Shown here in pieces: positions 2,918-19,499 of a stretch of 64,000 bases of DNA (position 1 is the first letter of the stretch; each line of letters begins with the position of its first letter). Both the position numbers and the translations under genes were made by a program. The DNA is from Longimicrobiales bacterium (GTDB lineage: Bacteria; Gemmatimonadota; Gemmatimonadetes; Longimicrobiales; Gaopeijiaceae): the NCBI GenBank assembly GCA_951813395.1, contig OX638356.1:1405340-1469339 (forward strand), given 5' to 3'. The notes beneath the pieces are model-generated. The model was not told the DNA's origin. It saw only the letters and a list, made by a program, of their open reading frames with translations, and ran no database searches.

Positions 2918-3643
2918 TCAGCCGCTGTGAGAAGGCGAAGCGCTGTGGCGGGGCGCGGGTGGATCCCTGTCGTCGAGGTGGCGGCCGATCACGCGCTGGA
3001 CGATGGCAACGGAGTCGGCGGCCTCGTCAGCGTAGGCGGGCTGCAGGAGCGGTTGACGATGTCCGTCGGCCCAGCCGGGGGGCAGGAGGTCGAGCTCGTT
3101 GCGGATGTCGTCGAGGGACGGTGGGGGGATTGTGGCGAGGGCGTTGTCGAGGGCCTCGGGATCGAGGCGCTGGGCCACGGCGATGTCATAGAGGTCGCGA
3201 GGCACGAAGATGTGGTATTCAGCGAGGCGGTAGGTGAGTTTCTTGGCAAGGATTTCCGCATTGGTTTCGAGCGGCACGCATGTGCCTCGCACGATATCGG
3301 TGGAGACCGGCTGGTCGGTGAGCGAAGTAGTGGCGAGAATGGTGATCTCGCCGTCCCGAAGCGCGATGAGAGTATAGCGATGACCGACGCCGAGTTGCTC
3401 GACGGCTTGGGTGTGCAACTCTACATCGGCGGAGAATCGGTCAGAGTCGCGATACAGTTTGGCGTACGCCTCATGACCTGTGAAGAGGTCCACGTCGGTA
3501 CTGTGGCGGTGCGTCCAGCGGGCGGCAAGCGCCGTGCCGCCGCCAAGGCAGATGTGTTGTTCGCCGCCGAGGTGGTCGGCAAGAGGCTTGCGAACAGCTT
3601 CGAGGAGTTCGGCCGGCCCGCGCGGAAGGTCGAGTTCAGCCAT
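2918..3643 (-). CDS. AbiEii/DUF1814-type nucleotidyltransferase (putative type IV toxin) without a canonical AbiEi
   Basis: A 241-residue protein from the ATG at 3643 (an upstream ATG at 3727 would add a His/Arg-rich leader that looks untranslated). Residues 34-52 hold the polymerase-beta-fold signature: GGGTALAARW followed by HSTDVDLF, with Asp50 and Asp52 as likely metal ligands. A later KKLTYRLAEY/PRDLYDIAVAQ block matches the second conserved region of DUF1814. Family members such as AbiEii and mycobacterial MenT toxins transfer nucleotides, in MenT3 onto tRNA ends. The usual partner AbiEi is absent upstream, where a 133-bp gap separates it from vapC. Instead an unknown 212-residue gene follows 5 nt downstream. 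Confidence 0.82.
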   Translation of the reverse strand: MAELDLPRGPAELLEAVRKPLADHLGGEQHICLGGGTALAARWTHRHSTDVDLFTGHEAYAKLYRDSDRFSADVELHTQAVEQLGVGHRYTLIALRDGEITILATTSLTDQPVSTDIVRGTCVPLETNAEILAKKLTYRLAEYHIFVPRDLYDIAVAQRLDPEALDNALATIPPPSLDDIRNELDLLPPGWADGHRQPLLQPAYADEAADSVAIVQRVIGRHLDDRDPPAPRHSASPSHSG

Positions 3644-15029: not shown

Positions 15030-16376
15030 TCAGTTCTTCGCTCTGGTGGGGATTGGGACCGCTTCCTTGACGGCGATTCCCGTCCACGGACTGTCACCCT
15101 TCACCCGGATCTCGATCGGTTTGTCCCTCGTGCCGGGAGCGCCCTTGGCGCCGTCCGCGCCGCCTTCCTTCAGGAAGATCTGAATCACGCCGTTGGCGGC
15201 TTCCTCGCCGTAGAGCTTCCTGGCGGCCGGGCCCTTGATCACCTCGACGCGGTCGATGGCGTCGGGGTCGAGGCTGGGTATGCGGACGCCGTCCAGATCA
15301 CTCAGCCTGTCCACCCGCACACCGTCGATGTAGATGAGGGGCGCGGGGTCCATGCCCGATGCCCGCGCGCGGAGGAGCTCCTCTGCCCGGCGCTCCGCCT
15401 CGGCCTCGGTTCTCGCGATTTGCTCCTCGTCCATCGCCTCGATGAGGGCGTCCTGGACCTGGGTCGGGACCGGGGTGTCGCACGCGACGGCGAGTGCCCC
15501 GACGGCCAATGCCGCCAGCAGCAGCGCCTGGGCCGTGTTCAGCTTCGTCTTCTTCTCGCTCATGGTCTTCAATCTCCGTTCGAGTAGACTTTTCGGTTGG
15601 GTCATTGCGGGCACCAGTGCCCAGCGGCTCCAGGATCTGGCGCCCGCGTCCAGCAGGACATCGCCGTAGTCGGCGGCCGCGACGCCCGACCTGAGGATCC
15701 GTTGGTCGCAGTCCATCTCCACCGCGCTGCGCAGTCGGCGGGCCATCCACCATGTCGCCGGACTCCAGGGCAGGGCCGCCACGACCAGGCCTCCGTAGAG
15801 GAGCGACAGGTGGTCGCGCGTGCGGGCGTGCTCGGTTTCATGTCGTATGATCACCGCCCTCGCCCGCTGTTTCAGTTGCAGGACCCAGGACGGGACAACG
15901 ACGCTGGGGCGCACGACCCCGACCAGCGCCGGCCCGAAGCCGCGGGAAACGTAGACGTCCGTATCGGCAATCGACTCGCGCGGCCAACGACGGCGGGCGC
16001 GGGCCACGAGGATCAGAAGTGTGCCGATGACGGCGAGCGACGCGAGCGATCCCGCGGCCCACAGCGCGAGCGCGGCACGCACCGCCTCCGGTCCGGTCGG
16101 GATCCGCATCGATGAAGTCAGATTCCATGCGTCCGCGGTCTGGGTGCCTGCCGTTGCGGCGGGCGGCGCCCCCGGGGACTCTGTGGCCGACGGGGATTCC
16201 GCTGACCTTGCCGCAGCGATGGTTCCGGCAACCGGAATCGCCACCGCCAGTGTCAGGGCCGCGAGCCAGACGAACCGCCGCGGCCATCCGGCTGCGACGG
16301 CCAGCCTCTCGGCGGCCCAGCCGGCCAGGGCCACGACGCCGCCGATCAGCGCCACGTACAGCATCCAGGCGATCAT
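15030..16376 (-). CDS. M56 (BlaR1/MecR1-type) membrane metallopeptidase fused to a TonB-plug-like C-terminal domain
   Basis: A 448-residue protein. Transmembrane segments lie near residues 5-22, 35-56 and 103-125, with others later. The zinc site HETEH is at 179-183, with Glu220/Asp222 (AVEMDCDQ) as candidate third ligand, as in M56 peptidases that cleave BlaI-type repressors. Instead of a penicillin-sensor domain, the C-terminus (about 343-405) reads like a TonB-dependent receptor plug: YIDGVRVDRL, then IDRVEVIKGPAARKLYGEEAANGVIQI. Its ATG overlaps the blaI stop by 4 nt. The pair is a sensor-protease/repressor switch; the signal sensed is unknown. Confidence 0.85.
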   Translation of the reverse strand: MIAWMLYVALIGGVVALAGWAAERLAVAAGWPRRFVWLAALTLAVAIPVAGTIAAARSAESPSATESPGAPPAATAGTQTADAWNLTSSMRIPTGPEAVRAALALWAAGSLASLAVIGTLLILVARARRRWPRESIADTDVYVSRGFGPALVGVVRPSVVVPSWVLQLKQRARAVIIRHETEHARTRDHLSLLYGGLVVAALPWSPATWWMARRLRSAVEMDCDQRILRSGVAAADYGDVLLDAGARSWSRWALVPAMTQPKSLLERRLKTMSEKKTKLNTAQALLLAALAVGALAVACDTPVPTQVQDALIEAMDEEQIARTEAEAERRAEELLRARASGMDPAPLIYIDGVRVDRLSDLDGVRIPSLDPDAIDRVEVIKGPAARKLYGEEAANGVIQIFLKEGGADGAKGAPGTRDKPIEIRVKGDSPWTGIAVKEAVPIPTRAKN

Positions 16377-16774
16377 TCCTCGTCCCTCCTGCGTTCCGCC
16401 CGGTCCAGCACCGAGCGCATCCGCTGAATCTCTTCGTCACTGAAATCCCGATCCTCCACCAGCGTCGCCAGCAACATCTCGGCGGACCCGTGGAAGATCT
16501 TGTTGACAATCCGTCGAAGTGCCCGCCCGCCCGCGTTCACCGACTCGACCAGCGGGATGTAGCGGTAGGCACGTCCCTCGCGCTCGTGACTCACCGCCTC
16601 CTTTTCCTCGAGGATCTGCAGCATCTTCAGGACCGTTGTGTAGCCAACGTCCCCACCCAGAGCGTCGCGCACCTCCGCGACCGTTCCGGATCCCTCGCGC
16701 CACAACACGCTCATGATGTCGAGTTCCCGGTCCGTGAACCCCTTGCGACCGCCGTCGCGCGGCTTGCCCGTCAT
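16373..16774 (-). CDS. blaI: BlaI/MecI-family transcriptional repressor
   Basis: A 133-residue protein from the ATG at 16774. It has the BlaI winged-helix pattern: FTDRELDIMSVLW, GSGTVAEVRDAL, VGYTTVLKMLQILEEKEAVSHEREGR, then a C-terminal dimerisation helix region. Family members repress their own operon until cut by the partner M56 peptidase, which is encoded next with a 4-nt overlap. It also overlaps the upstream amidohydrolase stop by 4 nt (16771-16774), so all three genes form one coupled operon. The nested palindromes upstream of that operon (18256-18327) are candidate binding sites. Confidence 0.9.
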   Translation of the reverse strand: MTGKPRDGGRKGFTDRELDIMSVLWREGSGTVAEVRDALGGDVGYTTVLKMLQILEEKEAVSHEREGRAYRYIPLVESVNAGGRALRRIVNKIFHGSAEMLLATLVEDRDFSDEEIQRMRSVLDRAERRRDEE

Positions 16775-18279
16775 CGGCCGTCGCTCCCCTCGTCCATGGC
16801 GCCGTCGGCTGTACCGGCGCGGGCGGCGCTCACCTCGGCCATCACCTCGCGCACCCGATCTCCGAAGCCCCGTGCCATTTCCATGACTTCCTCCTCCCTG
16901 ACGGTGAGAACCTGTCCGTCCCGCACCACGACCCGGCCGTTGACCAGCACCGTCGTCACGTCGCTCCCGCGCACCGCGTACACGAGGTGCGAATAGACCG
17001 CATACAGCGGCGTGAGTCCCGGGCGCCGCGTATCGACCAGTACGATGTCGGCGCGCTTGCCCGGCTCGAGCGACCCGATCTCGCCCTGCAGGTTGAGCAC
17101 CCGCGCACCACCCATCGTCGCCATCCTGAAGACCGTCTCCGCCGGAAGCGCCGCGGGGTTGCCCAGCATGAACTTCTGCAACTTGGCGGCAGCGTCCATC
17201 TCGTCGAACATGTCCAGATCGTTGTTGCTCGCGGGACCGTCCGTGCCCAGACCGACGGGAATCCCGGCGGCCAGCGCGGCCGCGACCGGCGCCGCCCTCG
17301 CCACCCCGAGCTTCATGTTGCTCTGCGGGTTGTGTGCGATCCCGGCTCCCGATGCCGCGATCCGGTCGATGTCCTGGTCCGACAGGTAGATCGAGTGGGC
17401 CAGCACCGTCCCGGGTCTCAGGGCCCCGATCGACTCGAGAGCTTCGATGACCCCCATCCCGGTCGCCTCCCGGGCGGCTGCGTCCTCGCTCGGGTCCTCG
17501 ACCGCGTGGATCTGGAAGGGCGCGTCGTACTCGTCGGCGAGGCGGAAAGCGGCTTCGACCGCGTCCAGCGGGGTCGTGTAGAGGGCGTGGGCGGCCACCG
17601 CCGGGACCACCGTGGGATGGCCCTGGTAGCGTGCCATGAACTCCGCGGCGTCCGCGAGCGAGGCCTCGGGCGAGGCGTGGTCGGGGGCGGGAAAGCCGAT
17701 CACGTGGGGCCCGGTGACCGCCCGGATGCCGGCGTCGATCGTCGCCCGCGCCATGTCGTCGCGGAAGTAGTACATGTCGGCGAAGGTCGTCGTCCCGCCC
17801 TTCAGCATTTCGACCGAGGACAACAGCGTTCCCCAGTAGACGAAATCGGGAGCCACGAGTGCGTCCTCGGCCGGGAAGATGTAGTCCTCGAGCCAGGTCA
17901 GGAGAGGCAGGTCGTCGGCGAGACCGCGCAGCAGCGACATCGCGGCGTGGCCATGCGTGTTGACCAGCCCCGGGATGACCAGCTGGCCGGTGGCATCGAT
18001 CACGTGGATGCCGGTGGGGCGGGGATCGTCCGGCGCGAGGAGCGCGGCGATGCGGTCGCCCTCGACGAGGATGGCGCCTCGTTCGAGGATCGTGCCGGGC
18101 TCGTCCATGACGACAACCGTGCCGCCGTCGATGAGCAGGCGGCCGTCCGGCTCCACGGGAGCAGGACCGCATGCCGCGAGCACGAGTGCCACGGCGGCGG
18201 CCGGGGTCCGGCCTCTCGGCCGCAACACTGCGGCGCCCGGATGACGCCACCAATCACGAAGATTTTCGTACATGCCCAT
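16771..18279 (-). CDS. Exported amidohydrolase of the MTA/SAH-deaminase (TrzN/AtzA-like) group
   Basis: Up to 502 residues from the ATG at 18279. The first ~20 residues overlap a palindrome, and a lipoprotein signal (RTPAAAVALVLAAC) begins near residue 25, so the true start may be a downstream GTG or TTG near residue 20. The enzyme core has VNTHGHAAMSLLRGLADDL, HAVEDPSEDAAA, LAHSIYLSDQDI, HNPQSNMKLGVA and GLGTDGPASNNDLDMFDEM, the metal and substrate motifs of methylthioadenosine/S-adenosylhomocysteine-type deaminases. A periplasmic lipoprotein form is unusual for that group. It is first in an operon with blaI and an M56 peptidase, so it may be the regulated output. Confidence 0.85.
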   Translation of the reverse strand: MGMYENLRDWWRHPGAAVLRPRGRTPAAAVALVLAACGPAPVEPDGRLLIDGGTVVVMDEPGTILERGAILVEGDRIAALLAPDDPRPTGIHVIDATGQLVIPGLVNTHGHAAMSLLRGLADDLPLLTWLEDYIFPAEDALVAPDFVYWGTLLSSVEMLKGGTTTFADMYYFRDDMARATIDAGIRAVTGPHVIGFPAPDHASPEASLADAAEFMARYQGHPTVVPAVAAHALYTTPLDAVEAAFRLADEYDAPFQIHAVEDPSEDAAAREATGMGVIEALESIGALRPGTVLAHSIYLSDQDIDRIAASGAGIAHNPQSNMKLGVARAAPVAAALAAGIPVGLGTDGPASNNDLDMFDEMDAAAKLQKFMLGNPAALPAETVFRMATMGGARVLNLQGEIGSLEPGKRADIVLVDTRRPGLTPLYAVYSHLVYAVRGSDVTTVLVNGRVVVRDGQVLTVREEEVMEMARGFGDRVREVMAEVSAARAGTADGAMDEGSDGR

Positions 18280-18327
18280 GAGACACCATAGGGACGAAGG
18301 AGTTCCGTTGTCAACGATGACCTTCGT
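18256..18327. promoter_or_regulatory. Nested palindromes, candidate operator of the amidohydrolase-blaI-M56 operon
   Basis: A 14-bp palindrome ACGAAGATTTTCGT lies at 18256-18269. A second dyad follows, ACGAAGG (18294-18300) against CCTTCGT (18321-18327), which encloses the 11-bp palindrome CGTTGTCAACG (18306-18316) on the same centre. All lie at or just upstream of the operon start. The half-sites ACGAA/TTCGT recur at 19486-19499 before the next minus-strand gene. Binding by the BlaI-type repressor is an inference. Confidence 0.5.
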
Positions 18328-18363
18328 AGCGATCGACTCGGGGACCCGACCGGTCGCTGTCGG

Positions 18364-19458
18364 CTACCTGACCAATCCTATCCAGTCGCAGTCGTCGGCT
18401 TCAACGGCAATGCGGCGGATTACGGTCACCGCATCGCCTCCGCCAAGCACCTGTTCCAGGACCAGCAGCCTGTCGCCATCGAATCCGACCACCGGATGGG
18501 ACTCCGGTCCCAGCGGCACGCGTGCGTCCGGACAGGCCCGCGCCCGGTCCGCGTGGATGACAGAGACCCACAACGTCTCCGTGTACAGCGGGGGATCCTC
18601 TCCTGCCAGGTCGGCGTGCACCAGCAGAAAGGAGCCATCCGGCCGGCGGTGGAGACCCGTGGCCAACGAGAACAGGCCGAAGATGCTGAAATAGGCACCG
18701 GTCTGCCGCTGGTCCGTGATCGTGGCCTCGGGGTCGGAGGGGGCCTCGCGACGGTGGACTGCCGGCACCTCGAAGCGGTCGAGCTCCCGGCCGGACTCGT
18801 CTGCCATTACGAGGTACGTGAGCGGCATGAACGCCACAAGCAACGTGTCGGCCCACTTTGTGAACGGCATGGAACTGAACATGCCGCCGACCGGCCCCCC
18901 TTCCCGGTACGGTTCCGGGAGGTCCACGACGGCCTCGGCCTCTTCCTCGCCCAGGGTCAACCGGCGGACCGCGCTGCGGGGCGTGTAGTGGGCACCGCTG
19001 ATCCACAGGTCGTCCGTTTCCACGGTTGCCGACTCCGCGTATCCCGGCAGAGGGAATCGCTCCACAAACCGACCACCGGGGCTTTCGAAGCGCTGAACGG
19101 CGAAGGGTTGCCACGAAAGGACCAATACGTGATCGGTACCCTGGGGCAGCGCGACCTGGGCCTCTTCCCATTCGCCCGGCCCCTGGCCGCCTGCCCCGTA
19201 GCGCATGATCAGGCGTCCCTCGGAAGAGTATTGAAACGCGTGCGGCTGCCGGTAGTCGGTGACCAGGTAGCCTCCGGCCCCGTCGGGGACGAGCGACCCC
19301 GGATAGACCAGGAAGTCGTCCGACGACTCCACCAGCACGATCGAGTCGCGAACTTCCACGACAGGTTGGGCAAACAGGCTGGACATCGGTGCCGCGGCGA
19401 GCAAGAGGCCGAGGCCTACCGCCGCCAATGGCGCGGCGCGCGTGTGGTGGAAGAGCAT
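18364..19458 (-). CDS. Exported 6-bladed beta-propeller protein
   Basis: A 364-residue protein with a Sec signal peptide (LAAVGLGLLLAAAPMSSLFAQ) from the ATG at 19458; there is no lipobox, so it is probably soluble in the periplasm or outside. Propeller-type strands are visible (LVPDGAGGYLVTD, QYSSEGRLIMRYG), along with the GAGGQGPGEW version of the motif shared by the other propellers here. It reads toward the amidohydrolase-blaI-M56 operon with an 84-bp gap. Its promoter region contains the same ACGAA-N4-TTCGT palindrome, suggesting shared control. The ligand or enzymatic role is unknown. Confidence 0.72.
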   Translation of the reverse strand: MLFHHTRAAPLAAVGLGLLLAAAPMSSLFAQPVVEVRDSIVLVESSDDFLVYPGSLVPDGAGGYLVTDYRQPHAFQYSSEGRLIMRYGAGGQGPGEWEEAQVALPQGTDHVLVLSWQPFAVQRFESPGGRFVERFPLPGYAESATVETDDLWISGAHYTPRSAVRRLTLGEEEAEAVVDLPEPYREGGPVGGMFSSMPFTKWADTLLVAFMPLTYLVMADESGRELDRFEVPAVHRREAPSDPEATITDQRQTGAYFSIFGLFSLATGLHRRPDGSFLLVHADLAGEDPPLYTETLWVSVIHADRARACPDARVPLGPESHPVVGFDGDRLLVLEQVLGGGDAVTVIRRIAVEADDCDWIGLVR

Positions 19459-19485
19459 CGATACCGGCTCCGGACAGAGGATGCG

Positions 19486-19499
19486 ACGAAAACGTTCGT
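19486..19499. promoter_or_regulatory. ACGAA-N4-TTCGT palindrome upstream of the propeller gene
   Basis: The sequence ACGAAAACGTTCGT lies 27 bp upstream of the propeller start at 19458. It matches the palindrome at 18256-18269 in both half-sites and spacing, and the following bases (AYATG) also agree. It is a candidate operator common to both transcription units. Confidence 0.5.

Follow-up and report, generated by a model that had tools for sequence, protein, structure and literature searches.

Two palindromes next to a blaI operon

Two neighbouring minus-strand genes of a Longimicrobiales bacterium, one coding for a propeller-like protein and the other heading an operon with a blaI gene, carry palindromes with identical half-sites at their 5' ends. 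The locus raises the question of whether these palindromes are binding sites of the BlaI-type repressor encoded beside them, as an earlier note on this DNA had proposed, and whether both genes would then answer to one switch. The window analysed here is a stretch of 64,000 nucleotides, and the genes and sites concerned are the following (all on the minus strand).

15030..16376, minus strand: M56 (BlaR1-like) membrane metallopeptidase with HETEH motif and C-terminal TonB plug domain (PF05569, PF07715)
16373..16774, minus strand: blaI, Penicillinase_R repressor, overlapping the amidohydrolase stop (PF03965)
16771..18273, minus strand: amidohydrolase, first gene of the operon, with lipoprotein-like N-terminus (PF01979)
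18256..18269, minus strand: O2, downstream putative BlaI operator, identical with palindrome 1; amidohydrolase codons 2-6 (Y-E-N-L-R)
18271..18273, minus strand: conserved ATG directly before O2, likely amidohydrolase start (ATG-TAC-GAA in frame in 13/13 palindrome-bearing orthologues)
18277-18279, minus strand: second in-frame ATG of the amidohydrolase
18285..18290, minus strand: -10 element TATGGT of the amidohydrolase promoter, 18-nt spacer
18309..18314, minus strand: -35 element TTGACA (perfect) of the amidohydrolase promoter
18314..18327, minus strand: O1, upstream putative BlaI operator, ACGAAGGTCATCGT on the minus strand, overlapping the -35 element
18364..19458, minus strand: secreted beta-propeller-like protein (weak PF17170 match)
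19486..19499, minus strand: palindrome 2, O2-type putative BlaI operator in the leader of the propeller gene

Both palindromes, ACGAAGATTTTCGT at 18256-18269 and ACGAAAACGTTCGT at 19486-19499, match ACGAA-N4-TTCGT exactly, and an exact search of the window finds these two alone, just as the earlier note had it. Their presence is beyond chance: 0.07 matches are expected and none of 100 dinucleotide shuffles reached two. The whole genome, a single contig of 4,091,820 bp, contains eight matches (reversed control, none), compared with about 4-5 that the window shuffles, scaled arithmetically to genome size, would give by chance. The other six all lie within long open frames. The pair in the window thus stands out, and the motif does not recur as a repeat across the genome. 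Of the nested dyad formerly described at 18294-18327, the part ACGATGACCTTCGT at 18314-18327 (one mismatch) has proved to be O1; conservation does not extend to the left arm at 18294.

The blaI gene directly follows the amidohydrolase as second gene of the operon. Its product matches the PF03965 profile over the cut-off (E 1.4e-27) and has MecI as its best PDB match (1okr, E 1.1e-8). The adjoining M56 protein matches PF05569 (E 1e-16), its translation displays HETEH, an instance of the zinc-protease motif HExxH, and its C-terminus matches the TonB plug (PF07715, E 1.9e-9). A penicillin-binding sensor domain was not found on it with Pfam or NCBIfam (blaR1_generic reached 36 bits, cut-off 400), and scans of six window proteins against Pfam and of five against NCBIfam turned up no beta-lactamase.

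Those amidohydrolase relatives that bear names come from Gemmatimonadota MAGs, presumably of marine sponge origin judging from the bin names. Amidohydrolases of 75-80% identity also occur in MAGs labelled Rhodothermales, Cyanobacteria and Candidatus Synechococcus spongiarum (L117-L119, L121, L122, L124, L126). Such identity is far above what the distance between phyla would lead one to expect and points to possible gene exchange among sponge symbionts.

Paired dyads at the promoter

Both kinds of site are of the form TACGA-N6-TCGT, with the core ACGA-N6-TCGT. The O1 pattern, ACGAAN5TCGTTGACA, has 26 matches in 16 of 23 genomes of the genus (reversed control, none), and 25 of them are accompanied by O2 44-59 nt downstream. 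The O2 pattern, TACGARNNNNYTCGTGA, likewise has 26 matches, in 18 of the 23 genomes (control, one); three genomes (G002, G004, G009) possess O2 and lack the O1 pattern. When the O1 set is extended to 33 sites, seven of them located via their O2, 32 are paired with O2, 14 at 44-49 nt and 18 at 57-59 nt, with none between; the window's pair, at 58 nt, belongs to the latter class. Spacing in other genera is 44-50 nt, and G124, which has three dyads, adds 23 and 45. The two classes are about one helical turn apart, which would fit two dimers held in fixed rotation.

Conservation of the dyads together with blaI

We collected 24 close amidohydrolase orthologues, 22 from the genus of the window and two from other genera of the family; upstream DNA is available for 23. 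The exact palindrome is found at the gene start in 13 of the 23, with varied spacers, and blaI directly follows the amidohydrolase in all 13. In three genomes (G017, G018, G020) blaI lies 330-400 nt further on behind its own promoter; there both dyads precede blaI and the amidohydrolase has none. In two others (G021, G022) the dyad pair precedes the M56 gene, and in G007, G014, G033 and G044 neither the palindrome nor blaI/M56 adjoins the amidohydrolase. The contig of G003 ends at the amidohydrolase locus. Altogether, dyads stand ahead of the blaI transcription unit in 20/20 resolvable genomes among the 21 of the genus with a BlaI orthologue; of these 21, G014 has O1 only and G006 is cut by a contig end and is thus not resolvable. 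Because the promoter-position switch may have happened once, this co-occurrence does not represent many independent events. Many independent gains were considered and are not supported, one change being all that the tree requires.

Two further observations concern these promoter regions. G022 retains its first blaI only as a truncated remnant, situated between intact O1/O2 and M56 (L045, oriented 3200-3330), and the second, complete copy 2.4 kb on has a dyad pair of its own. Further, five genomes each have a single copy of an AT-rich element with TGTMAA/TTKACA-like half-sites between the amidohydrolase and the blaI promoter (G017:C27:7061-7098, G018:C130:56249-56286, G020:C202:24307-24344, G021:C83:26778-26815, G022:C1:2928676-2928713). 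Similar strings occur in the amidohydrolase signal region of G016/G019 and before propeller genes in G005/G011, and the element is possibly a site of another regulator.

The survey was extended to 116 genomes of the family from 40 genera, and this BlaI is present, at E<=1e-40, in 47. The O1 pattern is present in 29 of the 116; all 29 encode this BlaI at that threshold, and none of the 69 genomes without it has the pattern. In genus g12 both dyads lie upstream of blaI in 10/10 genomes with 76-79% identical BlaI. Among 18 blaI genes at 60-67% identity, the 700-nt upstream regions contain ACGA-N6-TCGT in 16 (shuffles, 0.8% per upstream) and the exact palindrome in 12 (0.03% per upstream); of the remaining two, one differs by a single mismatch and the other runs into the end of its contig. 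Three further blaI genes (63-66%) have ACGA-N6-TCGT in 3/3. From this pattern we suggest that BlaI would regulate itself via dyads in its own promoter.

The earlier note had called for a look at conservation upstream of orthologous genes and for a motif search near blaI/M56 operons. Both were carried out and leave its proposal standing: the 4-base spacer and the flanks vary around half-sites that stay the same, and the dyads track blaI across the family and also precede M56 genes.

A probable operator within a reading frame

Palindrome 2 does lie before its gene, as had been thought, but palindrome 1 is located within the amidohydrolase frame in all 13 orthologues that carry it. They read ATG TAC GAA nnn nTT CGT in frame (M-Y-E-x-[F/L]-R), and a lipoprotein-like signal comes next, one example being MYERFRDKFVLAALALTGC in G002. 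A symmetric arrangement, with both palindromes 27 nt from start codons (GTG 18228, ATG 19458), was considered and dropped, as the orthologues place the amidohydrolase start at the ATG adjoining the palindrome. At the palindrome GAA and CGT are each used 13/13 times, whereas in the gene bodies GAA accounts for 71 of 333 Glu codons and CGT for 16 of 341 Arg codons; the 13 sequences are related, though, and do not amount to 13 independent trials. Because the same dyads occur in non-coding leaders, it is the DNA and not the peptide that is under constraint, and in the amidohydrolase gene operator DNA has probably come to serve as signal-peptide codons 2-6.

The propeller gene and other candidate targets

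Palindrome 2 resides in the 5' leader of the propeller gene, 27 nt before ATG 19458 and ahead of a GGAG-like ribosome site. Its half-sites are identical in G000 (the genome of the window), G016 and G006, and the spacer and flanks differ. In the window this gene has one dyad only, with no O1 and no clear -35 element. The palindrome is absent in four propeller orthologues at 54-58% identity, and a site of this kind is likewise missing from four propeller paralogues of G000.

Elsewhere in the genus, dyads precede M56 paralogues. O2 sites are found before propeller genes in G008, G011, G015 and G022, the first three also having O1, and G018 has one O1 without O2 before a propeller gene. Ten new O2 matches were inspected: four stand before M56 genes and four before propeller genes, and the other two appear to be chance matches. 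In G015 an O1/O2 pair precedes the propeller gene, yet a BlaI with 75% identity or more was not found in that genome. The link between the propeller gene and the amidohydrolase operon through BlaI, as first proposed, is therefore supported by sequence comparison; control of the propeller gene by the same BlaI is likely, though weaker than for the operon, since four orthologues lack the palindrome and the window has a single dyad.

Paralogous repressors

A general BlaI site of this genome was considered and rejected, as the three other blaI loci of G000 do not have the motif. Within about 350 nt of 28 paralogous blaI genes (43-53% identity) ACGA-N6-TCGT was not found once. Instead, ACTA-N6-TAG(G/T) is present upstream of 14 of the 28 (shuffles, 0.5%), in some cases likewise fused to TTGACA, and the paralogues seem to use this sequence. 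The residues in question, named by alignment, belong to a helix whose role as recognition helix we assume from MecI. In the orthologues it reads GYTTVLKMLQ, with G44, T46, K50 and Q53 in 33/33; the paralogues have A44 (28/28), N46 (26/28), T or S50 (28/28) and R53 (28/28). Further positions of the domain also differ between the two groups. This pairing of a different operator with a different recognition helix suggests that orthologues and paralogues are separated by a candidate specificity switch.

Five of the 33 O1 sites (L229, L231, L232, L236, L250) are hybrids, ACGA-N6-TAGT, in which half-sites of both BlaI groups are joined. Downstream of a further blaI paralogue in this genome come an M56 gene and, next, a propeller gene (L072:4983-8598), so that blaI-M56-propeller clusters recur. 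The fourth blaI-like gene of the genome (L004 / G000:C1:3406473-3406760) has an in-frame TGA within the family match.

Alternative explanations

Could the amidohydrolase palindrome be merely coding, a conserved signal-peptide start MYExFR that is palindromic by accident? Its in-frame position in all 13 palindrome-bearing orthologues, encoding M-Y-E-x-[F/L]-R, is what such a reading would predict, but the same dyad recurs in leaders that code for nothing, those of blaI, M56 and propeller genes, and its O1 form lies upstream of -35. Rare synonymous codons are moreover invariant at the palindrome, and orthologues without the BlaI-type promoter do not begin with MYExFR. We regard this reading as very improbable and as largely refuted by the non-coding copies. 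Even less credible to us is that the palindromes act as RNA hairpins in short leaders (attenuator or translation control). O2, being part of the transcript, can pair into a stem of 5 bp. Yet O1 shares the core, although its position at the -35 box or above it keeps it out of the transcript; the folding energies do not stand out (z -1.17 and 0.08), and the innermost pair is often broken in O1.

Some other regulator might bind the dyads, the link with blaI being due to gene neighbourhood alone. G015, with sites and no close BlaI orthologue, speaks for it, but sites shift together with blaI between promoters, across seven genera they occur in BlaI-positive genomes only, and they are missing at paralogous blaI genes, whose recognition helix differs; we think this quite improbable. 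A more serious candidate, still unlikely in our opinion, is that BlaI controls just the amidohydrolase-blaI operon, palindrome 2 being a non-functional or differently used copy. The single dyad of the propeller gene, its lack of O1 and of a clear -35, and the loss of the palindrome in the 54-58% orthologues agree with this, and the three close relatives sharing the site are alike across the whole region (84% mean column identity). Nevertheless, their half-sites have stayed identical despite changes in spacer and flanks, and propellers recur behind O2 in four further genomes (O1 in three of them) and behind O1 alone in G018.

A model of regulation

Both palindromes very probably serve as binding sites for the BlaI-type repressor encoded alongside, and for this reason the genes around them look as though they are switched as one group. 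The core ACGA-N6-TCGT would be recognised by a dimer of BlaI. In the promoter of the amidohydrolase-blaI-M56 operon, O1 overlaps the -35 element and O2 would lie just behind the transcription start, so that two dimers occupying both sites would block RNA polymerase and the operon would be autoregulated. The single O2 in its leader would place the propeller gene under the same repressor. By analogy with BlaR1, the M56 protease would inactivate BlaI upon an envelope signal. Because the outer domain of M56 is plug-like, we suggest an envelope or nutrient cue as the trigger and not a beta-lactam. We give about 90% to this explanation as a whole, in which the sites, conservation, pairing, spacing and tracking of this BlaI that the genomes directly display would be accounted for by binding, repression and release. 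The switch itself would be of an ordinary kind; unusual are its DNA address and the operator doubling as the start of a protein.

A wider reading, which we hold tentatively and at slightly below even odds, joins all of this into a network of many sensors reporting to one repressor. One BlaI with a new operator (TACGAA-N4-TTCGTA) would hold several M56 sensors (some with plug domains), propeller lipoproteins and the amidohydrolase under paired dyads in two spacing classes one helical turn apart, and one of its operators would have turned into the start-codon region of a protein. Paralogous BlaI would have split off via G44/T46/K50/Q53 to A/N/T/R together with one base per half-site (ACTA-N6-TAG(G/T)), and the hybrid O1 sites may mark cross-talk.

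Relation to known systems

The locus encodes a Penicillinase_R winged-helix protein and a neighbouring M56 (BlaR1-like) protease, two features of the BlaI/MecI/CopY family. As in BlaR1-BlaI and MecR1-MecI, the gene after blaI encodes an M56 membrane metallopeptidase with HExxH; unlike in those systems, its outer domain matches the TonB plug and a penicillin-binding sensor was not found with Pfam or NCBIfam. The closest precedent is the BlaI_0696 regulon of Clostridium thermocellum. It is described as small and autoregulated, with BlaR1-like genes among the targets and two dyads (four protomers) at each target, the half-site GTCTAT being repeated five nt apart (PMC8457756). Paired dyads, an autoregulated (here predicted) regulon and BlaR1-like targets are common to both, whereas ACGA-N6-TCGT in place of GTCTAT, an amidohydrolase in the operon and M56-plug sensors distinguish our case.

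Operators of the BlaI/MecI/CopY family are TACA/TGTA dyads at promoters according to a second report (PMC7253601). In comparison with these, repressor family, dyads at promoters and MecI as best PDB match are alike, but the half-site here is TACGA, the dyad is wider (14-16 bp core) and TACA-N2-TGTA is found neither at these sites nor upstream of the three other G000 blaI genes. Since other published BlaI proteins also use other sequences (PMC8457756), its absence limits the assignment to a sub-group and not to the family. We would class the operator set as a BlaI-family switch with a differing operator, the sequence of which would itself be new in the wider reading. Literature searches on BlaI in Gemmatimonadota, M56/TonB or operators gave nothing on this operator among the matches listed, and a text search for the operator string returned, among the matches listed, only a 10-letter string in papers on unrelated subjects. 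To judge from these searches, regulation at the level of binding sites seems almost unexplored in Gemmatimonadota.

Taken together, the analysis provides a precise predicted operator for one BlaI group with a list of likely target genes, and a directly testable pair of paralogous repressors whose recognition helices and operators differ in a matched way. It also brings forward BlaI-M56 systems that are apparently unrelated to beta-lactam resistance and would be wired to secreted propellers and plug-domain sensors.
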